A program made the position numbers and the translations under genes. The notes below the pieces were generated by a model that worked only from the letters and a program-made list of their open reading frames with translations, was not told the DNA's origin and ran no database searches. From Cinnamomum chago (taxonomy: Eukaryota; Streptophyta; Magnoliopsida; Laurales; Lauraceae), in the NCBI GenBank assembly GCA_038049695.1, contig CP142453.1, forward strand, positions 114,344,001 through 114,408,000: a DNA stretch of 64,000 nt. Reading direction: 5' to 3'. Position 1 is the stretch's first letter. Each line of letters starts with the position of its first letter. Below, one piece after another: positions 7,220 through 54,000 of this stretch.

Positions 7220-10200
7220 CTTGATTTCAGCTCATTCAGTCCTGATGATGAAGACTATAGAGGTTACGAGTATAGCCTTGTTGGGGAGCTTTCTGAAGTA
7301 CGAATTGTTTATTTGAATCGCTTTGTGCAGGAGGTACCCACTTGAAGACGCATCTTTTCCCTTTTTTCACGCCATTCAAATCGTCACTGCACTGTAATAG
7401 TTCTATTGCAGGTTGTTAGTTACTTTATGGGCCTTGTTCCTAGAAATTCAAACAAAGTTGTAAAACTAAAAGATCAGGCAACCAACTCAGAGAAGTGGTT
7501 TACTGCAAGTGAAATTGAAGGGTCACCTGCTTTAAAGTTGGATCTTTCACTCAAGAAGCCAATAATAGTGATGCCTCAGAAAACGAATAGCCTTGAGTAA
7601 GTGTTTTTTATTACTTTTAAAGTTCTTTAATGAGACCATTGGCTAGAGTCAGTATGCTCTGCATGTAAGGCCAACTTTTTTTTTGTTGATCCCTATTAAT
7701 ATTTTATATGGAAAATTTGCAGTTATTTAGAGCTTGATGTGCTTCACATAACTGTCCAAAATACTTTTCATTGGCTTCATGGTGATAAAAGTGAAATGGG
7801 TGCAGTCCACTTGGAAATATTAACCATCCAGGTATGGTCACTCGATATTTCTCTTATACTGCTATTAAATCATTAAGATTATGTTCTTAATTTTATCATT
7901 TAACCTGTTGCTTACAATACAAGAACAATGAAGGAAAGAGAAGAAGAAAAAAAAATGCAACACGAAAGGAAAAAGATGATAAGACAAAGATAAGAGAAGT
8001 GCTTTGAAAAAGATTTAGGTGGTCATTCATAAGTCTTCTTGATGACCTGACATTTATATTTATATTAATGAAAAAAATATGAATTTACAGATGTTCCTGA
8101 AGTTCTATCAAATTACAAAACAGTCCTTCAGTGAAACCGAAATTACAAATAGGACCTGTATGGACCTCAACACTCTCCTCAAGCAGGAGTATGGATATCT
8201 ACAATCTCCAGCTTAGAGAAAACACTAGATAAATGAGTCTTTGAAAAACTTTTTGGAAAAAAATTGGCTAGACAGCAATTTGATCTTCATGCTGAGATAT
8301 CCTTAATCATTGTTCTGCATATTGAAATCATTTTGGAAATTGTTCGAGGAGATGATTTGATCAGAACTTGTAGGCTTCTTATCTTGAAGAGGTTCCACCG
8401 AAGATGTAAACTAGCGATGATCTCTGTTACCATGATACAACATCAATATTAGAATAACTGAGAAAGGATTGTTGTGGGTTTCCCCATACAATCCTGTGTC
8501 TATTTCTATGTAACTGTATGTGATATATACACATAAAGAGTGTCTGTTGCAACAAGAAGAAAGGATATGAACAAATGAAGATAAGACGCTAAGAGCAAAT
8601 GGCTGTTGCTACCGTTGGGTCTGAGCTGATGTTCATGGGACAATCATATCTGTCTACAATTAGAACCCCGAAAAAGTCTTCCTTCTATGCAAGAACTAAC
8701 AGTGGATGACCCCATTGCTCAACACTGCCTACAACCCCAAAAATAAATCAATTATGCAAACATTGAGAAGCTATAACTTGATCTTATAAGTGAAATTATA
8801 GTTCATCAAACAGTGAAGATTGTTAAGTTCTCGATTCGTCTTTTCCTCCAGTTTCTTCTGACTTCTCAACCTCTTGTTCTTTGTCCAAAAACTCTTTCAC
8901 AGAAGGCTTCATATGGCCAATGCTAGATCAAACAAGACCCCATTTCCAACCAATCCTCATAATTGTTAATGACCAGTAGCACCAAAAGCTCGAGCTACTA
9001 GTGAACGACACAATAATGTATATCAACAAACCCCTTTGAATGGGAAGCCGTTCGAATTCGAAACTTAAAGGACAGACGGAACGAAGTAGACCAAACAGAT
9101 GGAGGTAATTTGCCTCCCAGGGGTTTCGAACTCGTGACGTCTTGCTCTGATACCATGTTAATAACCAAAAACACCATAAGCTCAAGCTGTTAGTGAACAA
9201 CATAACAATGTATATTAACACACCCCTTGAACGGGAGGCCGTTCAAATTCTAAACCCAAGAGATAGACAGACGGAACGGAACTGATCAGATAGAAAAATT
9301 GAGGTAACATGCCTCCTAGGGGTTTCAAACTCATGACCTCTGGCACTGATACCATATCAATAACCAGTAACACCAAAAGATCGAGCTCTTAGTGAATGGC
9401 ACAACAATGTATATCAACACCCCCTTTGAACGGGAAGCTGTTCTAATTCGAAACTGAACAGACGGAACTGAATAGACCAGATAGATGGAGGTAACATACC
9501 TCCCAGTGGTTTCGAACTCGTGACCTCTTTCTCTGATACCATGTTAATGACCAGTAACACCAAAAGCTTGAGCTGTTAGTGAACGTCACAAGAATGTATA
9601 TCAACAGTCATATGATCTCCATTCTATCTTTCTGATTCTTGTCAACATCTGTAGGCTCCAGACCATCTGGCTTTGCACATTCCAGATCTTTGCAATGATA
9701 TTGACCAGTCCTATCCTGATCAAATTGACTAATAATGGCACTAATTGGAGGTGGAAAGTTCAGATGTTGAGTAGCAGCATAACTCTCTAGGTCCTCATCA
9801 ACATGCCCTACAAATTGCACATGTCCAAGACGTTTACACCTTTCAATATAAGGAATCATGGTACTTGAAGAATTACTAATTTACTGTTGTCCCCACCTTA
9901 CCAGTCAGACACGGGTTATATTACCAATTAAAATTTTTTCACCCTTCAGTATTTGCTTATAACTACTGTTTCTTGCATCAAGTCATGAAAAATAATAGCA
10001 TCAAAGCTTGTAACACTATGTGGGAGAGCATCACCCTCCCTGAAAATATCAGTGGCCTATGTGCTCCCTTTATGGACTATTACATAGACATGGGATTCCC
10101 AGACACCAGCAGTTGCAATGGAGTTTGAACAAGGCTCAATGCAATTTGAAAAGTTCTTACCTGCTAAAAGATAATCAGAAGCTGCTAATCTTTTTCTGAC

Positions 10201-39000: not shown

Positions 39001-42000
39001 CGTGGTATGGAAGATACTAGTGTGAAGCCATTAATCTCCCTCCATCTACATAATATCATCATCACCTGTGGCTTGTGGGCTTTCCTCAAACTGCGGCTCG
39101 TCATTTTCTGCAATCTGACCATCTGACTCATCTTCCTTTTTGGCGATGTGGATCTCTCTCTTTCTATACTCAGATGATATGTGACCAGTCTTGTTGCACT
39201 TGAAACAAGGCGTGGCCTCCTTGCCTTTGGTGACAATCACCGGGACCACTACATATTGACCTATCTGATTTGCTCTAGTTGATGGACCACTATCCTTGTC
39301 TTCTTTCAACCACTGACCATCACTCTTTAATCCACTCTCATCCCTAGCAGTTTGTGAAATTGATGCTCTAAACCCGGGAATCTCAATCTTTTGCGAGACT
39401 TAAATTGCAACCGGTCACTAATGGATATATGTAACTGTGGAAACAGTATGAAAGGGTATTGCATGGCTATAAACCACCCAAATATTGACCCACCAGCCAG
39501 TCCTCATCTTCAATAACATTGTTACAAACCAACAATTACGGAAACTCATTTGTGTAGTCATCAACAGAGTGGTCACCTCGTTGGAGACAATGCAGTCAGC
39601 CAGTCACTGAAAAGAGACTGTCTATACGTGAGAGTTAGAAACAAGGCATAAAAAAGCACTAATTTGTTATGTTTTCTAGAACTGCCAAATAGAGTAGTTG
39701 CTGGATATTTTCCGGTTTCATTGATTTGGGCCCTTTGACAGTCCGATTTACCAAATTGGGACTGAATCATCCTTCAATTATGACAAAGGTCTCCAGAGAA
39801 TGAGTTTGGTTTGTATCAATCAATTGTCTTGAAAGATTCTCTGGCCATTTTTTTATTTTTTTTCTGTTTCGTTAAATACCCTCCAACCACAATGACCATA
39901 AATTTCAGCATGTTTAGTTTCTTGTTATTGGTAATGGTTGTAGATTTTGAGTCATAACTCACCTTGCAATCGTTCTTTTTTTCTTTTTTATTTTTTTATT
40001 AAAGCGCTTACAAATCAATTGTCTTTCCAGGATTACTACATGATGGAATTCCTTGTGACCGACATGGGAAAAGGTATCTGTCTGTTCTTGTGTTATTTTC
40101 TGGTTATAGAGCAGAGTTACTTGACCATGTTTCTACTTCCATCAGACTTGTTTTATGTGGAATATACCACTGGAGATGAATTCAAATAATGTTGGCTTTG
40201 GCAGGTGAGCCTATAGGGTTCTATTCAGCTCCTCTGAAGCAGATAACCAGAGAGCTCCAAGCCAGTTCCCATTCATTTGATTCTAGTCATCTATTTAGTT
40301 GGATTGAGCTCTCAAAACCCATGGTAAATGTCCTTGTTAATGTTGTCATTATTTCACTTCTTATTATGGACCCATTCATGAAGGGAATAATATATGCCTT
40401 TTGTTCTAGAGAAATGAATGCTTTTCAAAGAATCTTTAATTTCCTAGAAGGAAGAAAAAATGTCTAATATTTTTAGTACATAATGCACCAGACTTTGCAA
40501 GGAGATAAACATAAGAAATTGCATGGGAGAATACGGTGTGCTGTTCTACTCTCACCCATGTCAGATGCTGAAAGTGACAAGCATGTCCTTGGTGATGGCA
40601 GAAAATCTGGACACATTCAGATAAGTCCCTCCAAGGAAGGGCCTTGGACTACTGTGAGGTTAAATTATGCTGCGCCTGCTGCTTGCTGGAGGCTTGGCAA
40701 TGATGTTGTTGCCAGTGAAGTAAGAGTGAAGGACGGTAACAGATACGTAATTATACGCTCTCTGGTTTCTGTTACTAACAATACGGATTGTGTTATTGAT
40801 GTGTGCCTCAACTCCAAAGCTCCTAATGAAAATCTAGAGTCATTAGATGATCAAAATATCAGGCCTGAAGGGAGACTAATAAGTGGTGATGGATTTGAAA
40901 CAGATGAATTCTTTGAAACTGAGAAGTACAATCCATCCATTGGTTGGGTTTCTTGCCCATCTGACATGGCATCATCAGATCAATCTAGCTTCAATCAGGT
41001 GAGAAATCGTGTTCTCTTGAAGCAAATACTATCACAGATGCATGTACTTATTTTTATAATCAAGATATATGTAAAAATAAAATTAGCCATCAAGTTTACA
41101 AATTATGATCTCTCTTACAGTTAAGAAAGTGTTCATAAAAAAAATATATATATATATATATAGACAAGCCCCATATGTATAATCGAACACTTCAATTAAA
41201 TGCATGTTCTTTATTCATCTACCAATCTTCCTCGTGTCTATGGTTTCATGCTTTGGAGAACATAATAGAAGTCAAGGGTTTAAGAATTTGTACACCCTCC
41301 TCTTCATGTTCTTTATGTTTAACCAGTAACACCAAAAGGTTGAGTTATTAGTGAATGACATAACAATAATTTATATCAACACCCCCATCGAAAGGGAAGC
41401 CGTTCGAGTTCAAAACACAATAGATAGACGGAACAGACCAGATAGATAGATGGGGGTAACATGCCTCCTAGGGGTTTCGAACTCGTGGCCTCTGGCTGTG
41501 ATACCATGTTATGACTAGAAACACCAAAAACTCAAGCTATTAATGATCGACCCTCGAACAAACAACAGACCAAAGTCGTTCGAATTCAAAACGCAACAAA
41601 CCATTCAAATAGATTAAGGTAACATGCCTCCCAGGTGTTTCGAACAAAACAATGGGAACCTATTCGAATTCTAAACCCAATAGATAAACGGAACACATAG
41701 ACCAGACCGATAGATGGAGGTAACATGCCTCCCAGGGGTTTCGAACTCGTGACCGCTGGCTCTGGTACCATGTTAATGACTAGAAACACCAAAAGCTTAA
41801 GGTATTAGCGAATGACCCTCAAACAAACAGCAGACCAAAGTCATTCGAATTCGAAACCCAACAAACTGACGGAACAAACAACAGACCATTCAAACAGATG
41901 GAGGTAACATGCCTCCCAGGGATTTTGAACTCGTGACCCCTGGCTCTGATACCATGTTAGTAACCAGTAACACCAAAAGCTCAAGCTGTTAGTGAATGAC

Positions 42001-45000
42001 ATAACAATAATGTATATCAACACTTTATTCATCTCGCCATTAAAAAAAAAAAAAAAAAACCTTTATTCATCTCTAAAACCTTCCTAAATCCACAAAACTT
42101 ATTAAGGGCCCATTTGGATGTTTACATAATACAATATTTAAAAATTTAAATAATAACATAATAGAATCTTGCAGAATCTAATAGTACAATATTATAATAT
42201 TGTTGTTTGGCAATTTTTGAAGGATTTGACAGATTTTGAACTAGGATGTTTGGCAGTTTCTAAAGAATATAATTTATGCTGAAACTAAAAGCTTTCAAAG
42301 ATTTAAAATCAAACAACAATGCAAATTTATAATATGGACTCAAAATTTGTAAAATTTTCTCAATTTCTTAAAAAAGGGAATTAAGGAGGGTTAGCCTCAA
42401 ATGTCAGGATTATAAAAGCTACATATAAATATAAGTTATACCTTGGGAATTAAAGGTAAAAGTAAACTGACAAAACCAACCCCAGATAGATGGAATTAGT
42501 CTTTGGTAATGATTTAGTTCTCCATGTAATTTGATCCGTCGCAGTGTAATCATTTGTTCAAAACTAACTTTTATTGAGCTTACAATCGACAAACTTTTCA
42601 GCTTTCACTGTGCCTTAAACTAACTTTATTTGCCAAGAAGTTTTCAATTTCATTGCTTGTTAGTAGTCAGGTGATTAAATATTCACAGTTTAAAGCATCT
42701 CTTTTATTCCTTTTCTTTTTCTTTTTCTTAGAAGTCTGAAATTTTATTTGAGGTTGATTTAGAGAAACCAAACAAGGAATTTTAATTCATCTATCACAGT
42801 GATAAATGATTTTGTGTGATAAATGTTTCACATCTTCCTTGCCATGGCTCATCAACCCATGTAGGGAGCAATGCATATAGCGTTGCATCTGTAATCATCT
42901 CTCTTATAGTAGTATAAAATCTAATTCCCTAATTTTGTATGTATGCCATAGTAGTTAGGATTGTCTTCTGAACTGTGATTGACAAACAAGCTTATTGTAT
43001 AGAAGAAAAACTATTTTTTAATATGTTATTTCTCTATAAGCCTTACATCTTTCTCTCATCAAGAGATGAATCATGTCCCTGCAGAGAGCCATTGAAGAGG
43101 GTGCAGAGTGCAGACTTCATAGAATCTGATAGTATAACTACTAATGGTGCACTCATATGTCATCATGGTGTAACCCATGATGAAACAACTGATATTGCAA
43201 ACCATAAAGAGGCAGGATGGTTTGGCTTGGGATGAAAGGCAAGATCAACTGAGTTTATTCCAGTTTCCTTCCGGTTCCTAAAAAAATGATCCGTGATCGT
43301 TTTGTAAATAATGTTCCAACGAGTCATATTTTGAGATTCGTTTCGCGTGATCAAAAGTGAAAATGGGAAATAACATCCAGTGGGAACGCAGAAACATCCC
43401 AAACAGCGCAATCCCAAATGGCCCCCCTTTATCTCTGACGGATTTGAATAGTTTTCTGTAAAGAGAAAGGAAAAAAATTGAAGATAGAGATAAGAAAAGG
43501 GAAGAAATGACGTACCTTTCTTCCCTGAAAGTGATATCCAGGGAGGTGATGAGAGAAGAATGAGAGGAAGAGAAGACGTGGGAGATGTGAATATTGCATA
43601 TGCCGTAAGTCATGACCCGTGAAATCACATAAGATATTCTTAGAAGATTCTTTCCTAAAGCATAGGGGTGAAGGAAAAAATCTTTCAATATTTTAGAAGG
43701 AAAGGAGATAATATTTTAAATTCTCAAGTTACCCAAACAGCCCAAACTGAAAGGTAAGAAAACTTTCTTAAAAATAAAAAAATCTTGCACTTTCTTGTAC
43801 ATCCAAATAGGCCCTAAGACGTTTCATTAACTACTAAATAACCTTTTAAAAGTGAAAGGGCTAAAAGAAAGAAAGAAGATAAAAGATTATTAGTATAAAC
43901 TGATTGGTTGTAGCTATTCTTGGTCAGCTGAATCGCTTGAGTTGTGAGATTCGATGAAACAAGTATCAAATCGTAAGATTCATACCTGAATCTTAGGTAT
44001 CAAATCGTAAGATTCATAACTAAATCCTAAGATTCATCTATAAATGGGATTCATTGTGTAAATACGATTCGTTTTCCTTAGAATTCGAGATAGGAATCGG
44101 GATTCAGGATACGAATCGTAAGATTCTAATAACAATGTTTATAGGACCGAGTGTGGGTGCCAGGTAGTGGGGCCCACCAATCATGTGGACTGTGGGGGAT
44201 TGGCCACTATCCATGAGCCCTAACTTCATGTAAAGTTTCAGGCCCATCAAAGCATCCTAATCCGTTATGTGGCCATCAAATTTAACGGTTTTATAATCCA
44301 ATGTTCTTTACCACTTCAATCCAACGGTCAGTTTCCATTCAGATCGGTAGAGGGAGGTGGGGGGGGATTGGATGGTTCGTTGTGGGTGATGGGCTTGGAT
44401 GGATTGTGGTGGATCCTATTTGGTGAAAAATGGGTGGTGGGTGAGGGATTTCTATGTTCGTGTGTGTGTGCACACGCTTTATTTGATCGTGGTTACTGGT
44501 TATCTTGTCATTAAACATGATGCTTTCTAATGTCTATTTTGATTGATTTCAGCAATTTTGTGAAATATAGTTCCAAGTTCTGACAGTTATGGTGATCATT
44601 TTCAGTATATGAAGCTAACAAACTTGATTTCTGTCATCTAATCTTAATGCTTTGATATCATCACAGATTTTGTAAATATTTGGAAATGATTTAATATAGA
44701 ATGGTGTCCTTGACTTGGTCCAACTTTCCCTTCATTTATTTTATTTGATAGGATGCTGATTTTTTTCTATGATATTTGTTGTATTAAAGTTCTGACTGCT
44801 TCAAAGAATAGTGTAAGAGAATGTGCATTATTTACTTTTCTCCTTGCTGAATGGATTAGAGTCATTAGAGGTGTAATATTTCTCCATTCTAATATACAGG
44901 GAGTTCCCAGTTCTGAGCTGTCATCTGGCTGGGAATGGGTTGAGGATTGGCATGTTGATAAAACATCAGTTGAATCTGCAGATGGATGGGTTTATGCTTC

Positions 45001-48000: not shown

Positions 48001-51000
48001 CTGAGTGGGCTAAGGTCCGAATGGGCCCCATAACAATCTCCAAATAATTAATAAATTTACTAATTGTTTGATAGAAGAGTCAGAAACACAGGGTTTTCTA
48101 CAATGACAGAAAGTTACAGAATCAAATTCTAGAAAAGAGGTTGTTATTGGGCCTCATTCATGTGGGCCAAAACAATCCCAAACGCATGGAAGCCTGATGC
48201 GGATCGCGCGGAAGGTTGCGGAATTGAACGGGCATTGGCATTTATGGAGGCATATGATTAGGGGTGTAAATTGGGTCCCAGCACGAAAAAAACCCGGGTC
48301 GTGGGCCGGCATGGCACATTGACCGAGTCGGGCCCGGCACGAACCAATGGCTGGGCCGTGGCACAGCACGGCCCACAGGGCCCTGGCCGTGCTACCTGTA
48401 ATAATGGGAGAAGAAGAGAGAGGAAGAAGAAGAGGAACAATGGGAGAAGGTCGTGTCTCAATAGAGCAACGACTGTTCACTTTTATATTGATCTTATGCC
48501 TTAATCAAGGCCCTAATTATGTAAAGAATACAAATTAGAATAACAAAAGAATGGAAAAAATAAATCATATCCTATACATAGAAGGAGAGAAATCAGGGAC
48601 TAAATTCTATCCTATACAGATTTGAGTATATCCTATGTGTGGGCTTTGTACATGGGCTGGGCCTGCTGGCCCGGCCTGTTATCTTCTACACTCCCCCTCA
48701 AATTGATGTGGTAAGTTTGAAAACATCAATTTGCTAGTAAGATCATGATGACGCTGTTTGGGAAGAGCTTTGGTGAAGATGTCCGCCAACTGGTTGAACG
48801 AAGAGACATGAGGCAGAGTTATCTTCTCAGTAACAACATGTTGACGGATGAAGTGACAGTCAATCTCAATGTGCTTTGTTCGTTCATGGAAGACCGGGTT
48901 ATTGGCAATTCTGGTAGCACTGGTATTGTCCCCATGGAGAGGTGTGGGACGACCAACAAGAACACCTAATTCACACAGAAGGCGGCGGAGCCAGATAATT
49001 TCAGCACTGGCGGATGACATCGCCCGATATTCGGCCTCAGCAGAAGACTTCGAGACAGTGGTTTGCTTCTTGCACTTCCATGAAATCAGAGAGTTACTAA
49101 GAAACATACACCAACCAGTGGTAGACCTCCGAGAGTCCGGACAGCCAGCCCAGTCAGCATCCGCATAGGCTGATAATTGCAGATAACTATCAGAAGGGAA
49201 GAAGAGACCATGATGAAGAGTTCCTTTAACATAGCGGAGGATGTGTAACACAACTGCAAGGTGCGGTTTACGGGGATTGCTAACAAACTGGCTAACCGTA
49301 TGAACTGCATGAGAAATATCTAGACGAGTCATAGTTAAGTAGAGCAAACTACCAACTATCCGCCGGAAAACAGATGGATCATCCAGGGGAGTGCCATCAT
49401 CAGAACTGATTTTGCTGTTCAATTCCAGAGGCGTATCAATAGTGTGAGCATCATCAAGCCTGGCTGACGTGATCAAATCTGTCGCATATTTGCGCTGAAA
49501 GACTCGAATGCCTGATTTGTTACGCACAAACTCAAGCCCCAAAAAATAGGTGAGAGGACCAAGATCCTTCATTCTGAAGTGGCGAGTAAGGTGGTGTTTG
49601 AGATCCGTAATGCCGGCAGTATCATTTCCACCGATAATCATATCATCAACATAGATTAAGAGGAAAGTGTAGCCCTTCGATGTCCATCTCAGGAAGAGGG
49701 AACTATCAGAGTGACTCTGACGAAATCCGGCTTGAAGAATTGCTGTCCGGAACTTATCGAACCAAGCCCTGGGAGCTTGTTTAAGCCCATAGAGAGCTTT
49801 CCTCAATTTGCACACATACTTTGGAGGACAAGCATATCCTGGAGGAGGTTTTAAATAAACAGTCTCACTCAAGTCCCCATGTAGAAAGGCATTTTTTACG
49901 TCCATTTGCCATAGAGGCCAGTTACGGGCTGCCGCGACACAAAGAAGAGTATGAACGGTGGTCATTTTTGCCACCGGTGCAAATGTTTCCTCATAGTCAA
50001 TTCCATATTCCTGTTTATATTCCTGTGCAACCAATCGAGCTTTATAGCGATCAAGACTCCGATCAGAGTGTACTTTGATGGAGTATATCCATTTGCTGCC
50101 AATCACAGAGGCTCCCTCAGGGGCCGGTACCAATTCCCATGTTTGGTTTGCTTCAAGAGCAACTAATTCCTCAGTCATAGCATCCTGCCAGTAAGCAATC
50201 TTTGAGGCCTGTGAATATGAAGTGGGGATAGGAGTACTATCTAAGGAAGTAAGAAGAGCAGAAAAGTCATAGCGGTTAGGGGCAACAGAAAGACGACTAG
50301 AGCGTCGCAGAGAGATGGTGCTATCAGAAGGTGTATTATTACCTGAAGATGCAATAGGCAGCGCTGGGAGAGGATCAGGAGAGGGAGTCACCAGAGGAGG
50401 GACCTTGTTCCGCCGGACATAGACTTTAGGAAGAGGTGATGGAGACTCAGACTCCGAGAATTGTGGCAGATAGGATACAGCAATAGGATGATTATCCAAA
50501 TGTAAAGAAAAGAAGGGAATATGTTTCAAGAAAATTACATTACGAGAGATACGCATTCGTTTTTCCAATTGATCATAACACAAAAACCCTTTGTGTTCAT
50601 TACTATAACCCAAAAAGATGCATTTAGCAGCCTGTGGAGATAACTTTGTGCGCTCAGCCGGAGGAAGATGAACAAAACACAAGCAGCCAATAACCCGTAA
50701 GTGAGAGTATGAGGGGGTTTGACCAAAGAGAACTTCGTAAGGAGTAGTCTTTCCTAGAACAGTGCTAGGAAGACGGTTGATAAGATACACAGCAGTTTGC
50801 GCAGCATCACACCAAAATTTGGGAGGGACTAAGGATGCAATTAACAGAGTACGAACAGTTTCAAGAATATGTCTGTTCTTTCTTTCCGCAATCCCATTTT
50901 GCTGAGGAGTATGCGGACAAGATTTTTGGTGAACAATTCCTTTATCAGACAGGAAGGTAGAGAATTCATGAGACATATATTCTCCACCAGAATCTGATCT

Positions 51001-54000
51001 AAGAATTTTGATTGCTTTTTGAAATTGGGTGTGGACCATGTTATAAATTTTTTGAAAAATGGAGAAGACTTCGGATTTCATGTGCATAAAGTAAATCCAA
51101 GTATGACGAGAATGGTCATCAATAAAGGTCACATAGTATTTAAAACCTGTCCTACTCAAGGTAGGAGCAATTCCCCAAATATCTGAATGAATAATGTCAA
51201 ATGATGCCAAAGCACGAGCATTATGAACAGGAAAAGGTAAAATATGACTTTTACTTAAGCAACAAGTTTCGCACTTTGATTGAGAGAAAGAAGACATCAT
51301 TTTATTATCAATAGTAGAATCTAAACAACCAAATTTAAATAATGAAAGCAAATGCGCATTATTCACATGACCAAGACGTTTATGCCAAATAGTCCACAAT
51401 TTATTGAAATTAGAAGAAGAAGCAAAGAAAGAATGATGTCCAATGTCCAGCAAGAATAGGCGCCCATGTTTACTCCCCGTCGCGATCACCTTCCCAGTTT
51501 GTCGCCCCTGTATAACACAACCAGAGGAGGAAAAGTGAACAAGACGGCCATCATCTATAAGTTGTCCTACAGAAAGCAGATTGGCTGATAATTTGGGAAC
51601 AAAGTATACATTGGTAAGGGTGAAAGACTGGCCAGAAACACTAAATAAAGTAATGGTACCAACTCCCGAAATGAGTAGTTGATCCCCATTAGCAGTGGTT
51701 ATTTTCTCTTTTCCAAGGTAACGGTGGGAATCTGTAAAGCTATGTTCTACAGATGTCATGTGATTGGAGGCTCCTGAATCTAAAAACCATGTGGAAGAGG
51801 TAATAGGAGAGGAAAGAGGCAGAAGAATGAAAAGCAGGAGATGCTATATGAGAATGAGTTTGATATCGACCGCCAGAAAAGCCCATTGACGCATATGCAG
51901 AGGTAACCGTGCTCTGGATCAGTTCTTGAATTTGAGCAGGAGTCATGGATACAGCCCCAGATGAAGTGCTTCCTGCATCGGATGACGGTACTTGAGCCTG
52001 GAATGCAGAAGGAAGATTCTGTCTTGGCAGATTGGAGGGGAGCTTTTTAGGCTGCGTCTCATTCCTTCGCTGGAGGCTGCGGCAGTCATCAATAAGATGA
52101 CCAGACCTCTTGCAGTAACAACAAACCAACTTCTTGCGGCAATTCTTGGCAATATGACCAAAGCCTTTGCATTCATAGCATTGAGTGGGCTTCTGATTTG
52201 GGGTTGCTAGAAGAGCAGAGTCAGCCGGAAGAGGTGCAAGGAAGGCCTTTGGTTCTTCAAGAATAGCCCGTTGGGAGGTGAGACGAAGTTCTTCGCGAAG
52301 TACTTCTTGAAAGCAGGTATCAATATTAGCCGACAGTTCTCGGTTCATGAGGGCAGACCGAACTGATTCAAATTCTGGTCGGAGATTCATAAGGAACTGG
52401 CTAATGTGAGTTTCCTCTTGGAGTTTAAGAGCCTCGGAGAGAAAGCCAGGAGAGATTGTCTAAATCAACATTGAATCCCGTTCGGTCCATAAGGTGAGGA
52501 AGTCATTAAAATATTCCTGCACAGATCTATCCCCTTGAGTAAATTTAGCAATTTCACTATCCAAGTGAAATTTCCAGGCTTTGTTGGTTTGATGGTAGAC
52601 CTTCTTGAGGTGAGCCCACATATCTGCTGCTGTATTATATGCTTGAAGAGCCACAGCAAGGGAAGAATCAATGGAGTTCAGAATCCAAGTAATCACCTTG
52701 GCATTTTCCTTGGACCAGGTGGCTACGGCTTTGGAGTCCGTGGTACTAGGAGTGGGAGGCTTAGCAACTGTTCCATCCAGATAACCAAATAGCCCCTGTC
52801 CTTCTACGAAGTTCTTCAAATGGAAGGACCAGGCCATATAATTTTGTCCATTAAACTTAACAGGGATGACATCATATTTATCCATGATTTTTAATACAGC
52901 AGAACGCTCAACAGAGGAAGAAAATTTTGAAAAATAGCAACCACGGGGTTCTGTTCTGCACTAATCCAAGCCGAGAAAGAGATGGAAAGGACTAAACAGC
53001 AATTAGTCAGCAATAACCAGCAAGAGAGGCTGAATGACTGGTTCAGATATGTTACTAGAGCACAAAGATGAACTCCGACACAAAAAATAACCCAACAGTG
53101 AATAAAACAGGGCCAGACGACCACTGTTATGGTGCTGGAGTGGTCACGTGGGGCCCACAATGAGGTCAAACCTCTAATCGGAGAATGTAGTCTTCTGTGT
53201 GAGACTTTTTACTAACTTCCAGATCAAATTTTATGACAAACTGATGAAAATCCGCAAGATTGAACGGATCTGATGAAAACTATCCTGTAAAACTGGGAAA
53301 ACACAAGCAGCAGTAGATGGCCTACCTCAGATGTGCCAAAAATCCTGGAAAAAGTTCCATAAATCTTAGAGAAGATGGGCGACCCTCGTGGTGGTGATTG
53401 GTTTTGATTTCGGAATATTCAGATGATGGCCCACCTTTGATATTCACTTGCAGAATGACAACACGGAGATTCTGCTGAGATAGAGAGAGACTTCAGATCC
53501 TTGAGAAGAGATTGTGTTGATATGAAGAGATCCCACAGTGCTCTGATACCATGTAATAATGGGAGAAGAAGAGAGAGGAAGAAGAAGAGGAACAATGGGA
53601 GAAGGTCGTGTCTCAATAGAGCAACGACTGTTCACTTTTATATTGATCTTATGCCTTAATCAAGGCCCTAATTATGTAAAGAATACAAATTAGAATAACA
53701 AAAGAATGGAAAGAATAAATCATATCCTATACATAGAAGGAGAGAAATCAGGGACTAAATTCTATCCTATACAGATTTGAGTATATCCTATATGTGGGCT
53801 TTGTACATGGGCTTTGTACATGGGCCCAGCCTGCTGGCCCGGCCTGTTATCTTCTACACTACCATGGTGCCTGGGCCGCAACGCAACACGGCCCGGCACA
53901 ATATTTTATATAAAAAAGGGCTGGTTTTTTATATAAATATAATATAAAACTTAAAATAATTAAAATTTTGTTTTTAATTTGTAAATTAGCATCAATATCT

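Follow-up and report, generated by a model that had tools for sequence, protein, structure and literature searches.

A tandem array built from four long terminal repeats (LTRs) and three internal parts of a terminal-repeat retrotransposon in miniature (TRIM) occupies positions 41316-42022, on the minus strand, of a 64,000-nucleotide stretch of the Cinnamomum chago genome (the window: assembly GCA_038049695.1, contig CP142453.1, positions 114,344,001 to 114,408,000), and was probably assembled as a concatenate of mixed units by template switching and inserted once. At the locus there is one target site, one 5-bp duplication, a pair of outer LTRs that are the closest pair in the array, and a succession of unit types that differ from each other. 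A borrowed reverse transcriptase would have used the short repeated R region to switch among several TRIM RNAs packaged together, yielding concatenated DNA with different inner units and with both outer LTRs copied off one template; an integrase, presumably of the Copia type, would have inserted the product once at a site resembling GTT-NNNNN-AAC. Deletion of one LTR, and possibly the doubling of a block of units, would be further steps, taken earlier or later.

The array is non-coding (no stop-to-stop frame of at least 120 aa overlaps it), has TG...CA ends and reads LTR1-internal-LTR2-internal-LTR3-internal-LTR4 in the sense of the element, with the primer site TGGTATCAGAGCC immediately 3' of LTR1 and GATGGGGG, on our reading the polypurine tract, immediately before LTR4 (Table 1). 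These features, together with copies elsewhere that carry different target duplications, uphold the identification as a TRIM made in the initial annotation, which also described four tandem LTRs enclosed as a whole, not unit by unit, by a single CTTTA; both points stand, with exact coordinates and an exact CTTTA on either side. The dimensions proposed there stand in part. LTR units of about 66-68 bp describe the outer pair but not the inner LTRs, which are truncated to 59 and 58 bp; their alignment to the LTR profile of the family begins only at position 19 of 64, so that about their first 20 bases are missing. Internals of about 125 bp describe the first and third but not the middle one (125, 206 and 125 bp between successive LTRs), which consists of a 125-bp and an 81-bp piece, both partial internals, fused at GTTCGA. 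We read this junction as the place of a lost LTR, for which reason the array probably once had five. The unit types alternate along it as A-X-B-Y-(lost)-X-B-Y-A, types X and Y differing at 18-25% of sites. Four-copy repeats, relatives with duplications elsewhere and array-free copies of the surrounding repeat establish that this is not a chance pattern.

Table 1. Coordinates in the window of the parts of the array, its flanking duplication and a second array of the same TRIM; LTRs and internals are numbered in element sense.
Feature	Coordinates	Strand	Basis or remark
Second four-LTR array of this TRIM (L006)	8963-9606	-	outer LTRs closest pair; no exact 5-bp duplication at ends (3/5)
Target duplication, low-coordinate copy, CTTTA	41311-41315	.	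direct reading; word single in surrounding-repeat relatives
LTR4, outer 3' LTR, 66 bp	41316-41381	-	nearest to LTR1, 6/66 sites differing
Internal 3, type Y, 125 bp	41382-41506	-	diverged primer site at start; GATGGGGG at end beside LTR4
LTR3, inner, type B, truncated, 58 bp	41507-41564	-	LTR profile
Partial internal, type X, second copy, 81 bp	41565-41645	-	GTTCGA join to next part
Internal 2, type Y, first copy, 125 bp	41646-41770	-	profiles and pairwise comparison
LTR2, inner, type B, truncated, 59 bp	41771-41829	-	LTR profile
Internal 1, type X, 125 bp	41830-41954	-	starts with primer site TGGTATCAGAGCC at 41942-41954
LTR1, outer 5' LTR, 68 bp	41955-42022	-	direct reading and comparison
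Target duplication, high-coordinate copy, CTTTA	42023-42027	.	direct reading

The bases preceding the array (41042-41315) are part of a dispersed repeat, and four relatives of that repeat (L144-L147) align across the site without an array, each carrying the target word once: CTTTA in three of the four and TTTTA in one. Being paralogous repeat copies and not orthologs, they reveal how the target looked before insertion but not what happened to it in this lineage. It is they that give the flank its weight, for CTTTA recurs nearby at 41209 and 42061 and would by itself be weak evidence. Among the 40 places listed for the surrounding repeat, five, one of them the window itself, match as far as the edge of the array, and most of the other listed copies end at or near 41220. 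A fifth fetched relative (L148), missing about 95 bp before the site, was not counted as array-free; it passes from about 41220 straight into the part after the array, and the repeat (41042-42150) has two forms that differ by about 95 bp beside the target.

The wider family was sought in 1.06 Gb of genome on 14 contigs, by similarity and pattern searches that scored or listed the best candidates, so the counts given here are not genome totals. A 33-base pattern from the start of the internal found 190 matches at three mismatches or fewer and none with a reversed control; part of these matches belong to another small TRIM-like family (L124, L125 and L126), in which the same pattern differs by one base and the LTR, of about 66 bp, is by our reading a different one. 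Annotation with profiles of the LTR and the internal covered 106 non-redundant loci (the present one is L001). The 55 two-LTR elements examined have a median length of 258 bp (range 153-301), in agreement with the single unit of about 255-270 bp foreseen in the initial annotation, which had placed it at the small end for LTR elements; small it is, but it holds no size record, since a 233-bp TRIM is described in PMC4717578. Target duplications at a fixed offset were exact in 26 of these elements and matched at four of five bases in 19, that is 45 of 55 at 4-5/5 (44 of 54 without one of a duplicate pair of rows, L101/L105), against 0.2% exact and 2.1% at four of five (2.3% together) among 2,970 mispaired flanks. 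Copies are dispersed over contigs C1-C12 with differing flanks, which rules out segmental duplication as the source of all of them: the genome search foreseen in the initial annotation thus found dispersed copies, 5-bp flanks on most two-LTR elements and a spread beyond segmental duplications of this locus. At the 52 sites where the duplication matched at four of five or better (four duplicate rows removed), the bases before it are G (34/52), T (34/52) and T (35/52), and those after it A (21/52, barely over its 30% background), A (36/52) and C (27/52). We read the target as GTT-[RNNNY]-AAC, a partly palindromic sequence of the kind expected of an integrase. The present site, which lies outside the 52, reads GTT-CTTTA-TTC on the plus strand and fits the left half of this consensus.

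Arrays behave as single insertions across the family. The 16 array rows scored for flanks represent 12 independent insertions, three being duplicates of L061 and one of L007: L027, L061, L062 and L063, first candidates for sister arrays, have common flanks and so represent one insertion, later duplicated, and L007 and L011, also rejected as separate insertions, likewise share theirs. A whole-array duplication at 4-5/5 was found in nine of the 12, each with its own word: TAAAG (this locus), TGTTT, AGTAT, GGTAT/GGCAT, ATCTT, AGGAC, TGCAA, CAAAT/TAAAT and AGATA. The present locus scores 5/5 (offset -2) only with the end of LTR4 set to AAACA, and 2/5 at the default end of the profile. Many arrays with different flanks had been named beforehand as support for mobilisation as arrays or recurrent growth in place, and these nine words supply them. 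None of 24 inner LTRs (duplicate rows included) had a duplication above 3/5; with most internals near full length and no inner duplication, nested insertion was rejected.

No other pair of LTRs is as close as the outer one in 11 of 16 arrays (L001, L002-L006, L014, L025, L034, L131 and L150), where 4.1 would be expected at random (P 2.5e-4), and the summed difference was reached in 6 of 20,000 within-array label permutations, a test in which exchangeability is only approximate because L131 ends in palindromic half LTRs, the chain of L034 omits an LTR beyond a gap and several arrays have truncated LTRs. Ten chains were omitted from the comparison, six for too little outer overlap (L009, two of L018, L081, two of L134) and four as duplicates (L011, L027, L062, L063). 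The median distance of the outer pairs, 0.098 across the 16 arrays, compares with 0.094 for the LTR pairs of 52 single elements, and medians between different loci are 0.153 for LTRs and 0.18 for internals. Internals lie at a mean distance of 0.189 within arrays and 0.203 between them. With outer pairs mostly closest, and internals diverging almost as much inside one array as across separate arrays, these distances argue that most arrays were heterogeneous at entry and that their outer LTRs were made together. Outer LTRs more alike than inner ones, an inner LTR and one duplication are together diagnostic of template switching according to Sabot and Schulman (PMC1950507), and all of these are found at the present locus. 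Judged from such comparisons, the arrays appear mostly to have entered as preformed, mixed units, for which template switching during reverse transcription is the best explanation.

Several observations weigh against this account. The outer pair is not the closest in five of the 16 arrays (L007, L037, L038, L061 and L149), internals are slightly more alike inside arrays than from one array to another (69 of 5,000 permutations), and a clear whole-array duplication is missing in three of the 12 independent arrays: L006 (3/5), L007 (2/5) and L025 (0/5). The pattern of the X-B junction occurs exactly twice in the genome, both times in this array. Furthermore, no RNA, cDNA intermediate or helper element was identified. 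One 5.4-kb element, described below, joins half an LTR of this TRIM to Copia-like sequence. A stretch inside its end at L128 was considered as a helper leader and rejected, since L152-L154 show it continuing into other high-copy sequence, on our reading antisense Copia pol.

LTR1 and LTR4 differ at 6 of 66 sites and the two copies of the X-B-Y block at 38 of 260 (X 10/81, B 8/58, Y 20/121), a difference that is not significant (Fisher p 0.31). Given a junction private to the array, the block was doubled within this lineage, either ahead of insertion or following it; a further X-B match on C8, with three mismatches, fits neither TRIM profile and was rejected. The inner LTRs are truncated and too short for their halves to be assigned to two templates. 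A course in which one TRIM entered at CTTTA and then grew into the array in place, through unequal recombination or slippage among LTRs and internals with a deletion thereafter, would fit this private, twice-present block, the divergence of its copies relative to the outer LTRs, the one flanking duplication and the array-free relatives of the target. Under such growth, however, the inner LTRs should lie no farther from the outer ones than LTR1 and LTR4 lie from one another, whereas the outer pair proves closest; internals should be nearly identical, whereas X and Y differ at 18-25%; and the inverted parts of relatives are left unexplained. We regard this course as unlikely. Between entry as one unit and growth in place, which the initial annotation had left side by side, the closeness of the outer LTRs and the array-free relatives favour entry as a unit, while doubling in place may apply to the X-B-Y block. 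A course of this mixed kind overlaps with template switching and has some plausibility, although we would not expect it: a template-switched L3I2 composite, A-X-B-Y-A, would have inserted once, been doubled in place to A-X-B-Y-A-X-B-Y-A and lost its middle LTR. It suits the unit order, the junction data and the outer LTRs as closest pair; divergence of the block is not below that of the outer LTRs, on a small sample, which speaks against it.

Arrays might also propagate as arrays, the present one having been copied whole from an older array locus by read-through RNA. One flanking duplication and close outer LTRs would be expected of such copying, and the inner LTRs, without their first 20 bases, are probably no longer able to serve as ends. 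No sister array sharing this inner junction turned up, however, and the sole repeated architecture seen, that of L027, L061, L062 and L063, is one duplicated insertion with common flanks, making this a rather improbable origin. Fusion of two or more separate insertions by ectopic recombination would account for heterogeneous units, but leaves neither matching flanks nor matching outer LTRs by the criteria of PMC1950507; both match here, and we consider it very improbable. Template switching followed by one insertion thus stays our preferred explanation for the array.

Relatives of the array include inverted forms. A head-to-head LTR palindrome of 28 bases was found at 22 sites when up to two mismatches were allowed, all within loci that were read, and at none with a reversed control; at three mismatches or fewer there are 43 sites, and 12 of the 21 at exactly three carry TTCAC and resemble ordinary LTRs, so this threshold was left out. 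Palindrome-ended elements have the U5 terminus at both ends. Eleven were readable at both ends, and eight of these have flanks at 4-5/5: L089, L114, L131 and L137 at 5/5, and L018, L130, L142 (in an A-rich run) and L128/L129 at 4/5, with L138, L140 and L097 at 3/5 or less (flanks of L114 and L128/L129 compared by eye). Those with one end unreached or unclear (L009, L017, L081, L110, L116, L132-L136, L139, L141) were not among the 11. Inverted-orientation units stand inside single elements with 4-5/5 flanks in L018, L114 and L131, an arrangement that unequal crossing-over would not make. Of 195 full-length, profile-aligned LTRs, 143 have a TATA-like word beginning at about base 6 and 167 one within the first 20 bases; AGCT[CT][GA]AGCT begins at base 33 in 96 of them and is present at any position in 116. 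The LTR palindrome AGCTCGAGCT lies about 27 bases beyond the TATA-like word (at about base 6-7). Transcription begins about 30 bases downstream of a TATA word and should thus begin inside AGCTCGAGCT, the ground on which a self-priming step can be proposed. We suggest tentatively, at somewhat less than an even chance, that one class of replication error yields both direct arrays and palindromic-LTR elements: the palindromic end of the first strand would prime itself or another copy, producing a head-to-head R-U5 LTR, and integrase would take the two U5 ends. One inverted TA-TRIM (tandemly arrayed TRIM) has already been shown in PMC4717578. A literature search by title returned nothing on palindromic, self-priming or head-to-head LTRs in this context, and the available text of PMC6934838 applies those words to other structures.

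Two of these inverted elements deserve separate description. At L018 (G000:C3:104074335-104075661) a 1.3-kb array combines direct and inverted units with three palindromic LTR junctions between flanks GTCCT/GTCCC. The 5.4-kb element (L128, L143, L129; G000:C2:58559708-58565122) has 149-bp terminal inverted repeats that are 97% alike, with a palindromic 56-bp LTR half-pair from this TRIM at the start of each, and flanks GAAAT/GAAAC; we read the broken frames inside it as Copia-like, and the element is possibly a TRIM-Copia template switch. Long G or C runs occur where the polypurine tract meets the LTR in L004, L018, L114 and L149.

Elsewhere in the window, the second four-LTR array lies about 32 kb from the first in the same orientation. 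To the right of the present array, 42023-42073 reads CTTTATTCATCT-CGCCATT-A(18)-C followed by CTTTATTCATCT again. This resembles a poly(A) retro-insertion of very small size flanked by a 12-base duplication, and the TRIM array may have inserted into the first of the two duplicate copies. A plus-strand frame at 44714-45679 matches the VPS13 adaptor-binding domain (Pfam VPS13_VAB, E 2.2e-9), and three other plus-strand frames in the same family search matched no family; we infer that the array lies antisense within an intron of a VPS13-like gene. A minus-strand Copia element at 48397-53813 has 262-bp LTRs 99% alike, the primer site TGGTATCAGAG and an unbroken 1,054-aa frame with reverse transcriptase and integrase domains. 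A Pol III promoter in the internal, suggested by the B-box-like GAGTTCGAAACC, was dropped for want of a tRNA or Rfam match.

Tandem LTR-sharing TRIMs are already known, as the initial annotation had stated; those with a single duplication are described in PMC4717578 and TRIM arrays more generally in PMC4528315, PMC7215508 and PMC6934838, and this array, with at least three LTRs, at least two internals and one target duplication, adds another case. The TA-TRIMs of Gao et al. 2016 (PMC4717578), with a single unit of 280 bp and among them the maize Zma-SMART arrays L3I2 and L5I4 and one with inverted TRIMs, likewise alternate several LTRs with internals inside one 5-bp duplication; the likeness drawn here is one of structure, and no comparison of outer with inner LTRs was met in the available text. 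SMART/FRetro129 (Gao et al. 2012, PMC3281118), compared by description only, is also very small and dispersed, with TGT...ACA ends, a 122-bp internal and 5-bp duplications, but has 85-bp LTRs and is reported there only from grasses. The template-switching complexes of PMC1950507 share the inner LTR, the one 5-bp duplication and like outer LTRs, but are a handful of cases among large Copia and other elements, whereas here a TRIM is concerned, with up to four or more LTRs and inverted parts. Rice tandem LTR-retrotransposons (PMC11899658) share an inner LTR, a single 5-bp duplication and an empty allele; they are larger, 28 selected tandems encode retrotransposon proteins, the units are 99% alike in one case, and their authors left two mechanisms of tandem formation at one locus undecided. 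Cassandra and Wukong also form TRIM arrays with several LTRs (PMC7215508, PMC4528315), for which recombination is invoked in both papers and template switching in that on Cassandra. Unlike Cassandra, with its 5S sequence in the LTR, this TRIM gave no 5S rRNA match in an Rfam scan of 41250-42100 up to E 1; for the tRNA-like LTR sequence of Helenus (PMC10886601), ARAGORN found none in the window and Rfam none in 41250-42100.

Published TRIM arrays have been ascribed to post-insertion recombination or to template switching, undecided between the two in the parts of the literature drawn on here. Short arrays with readable ends permit a direct test of formation, and the results favour insertion of preformed units: a known kind of event, visible here unusually clearly. 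What this locus and its family add is a family-wide test of outer against inner LTRs, relatives of the target without the array, a consensus for the target site and the variant with palindromic LTRs. Should one class of replication error underlie both forms, TRIM arrays would be direct records of strand transfer in virus-like particles, and palindromic-LTR elements would mark the end of first-strand synthesis and the use of two U5 ends by integrase.

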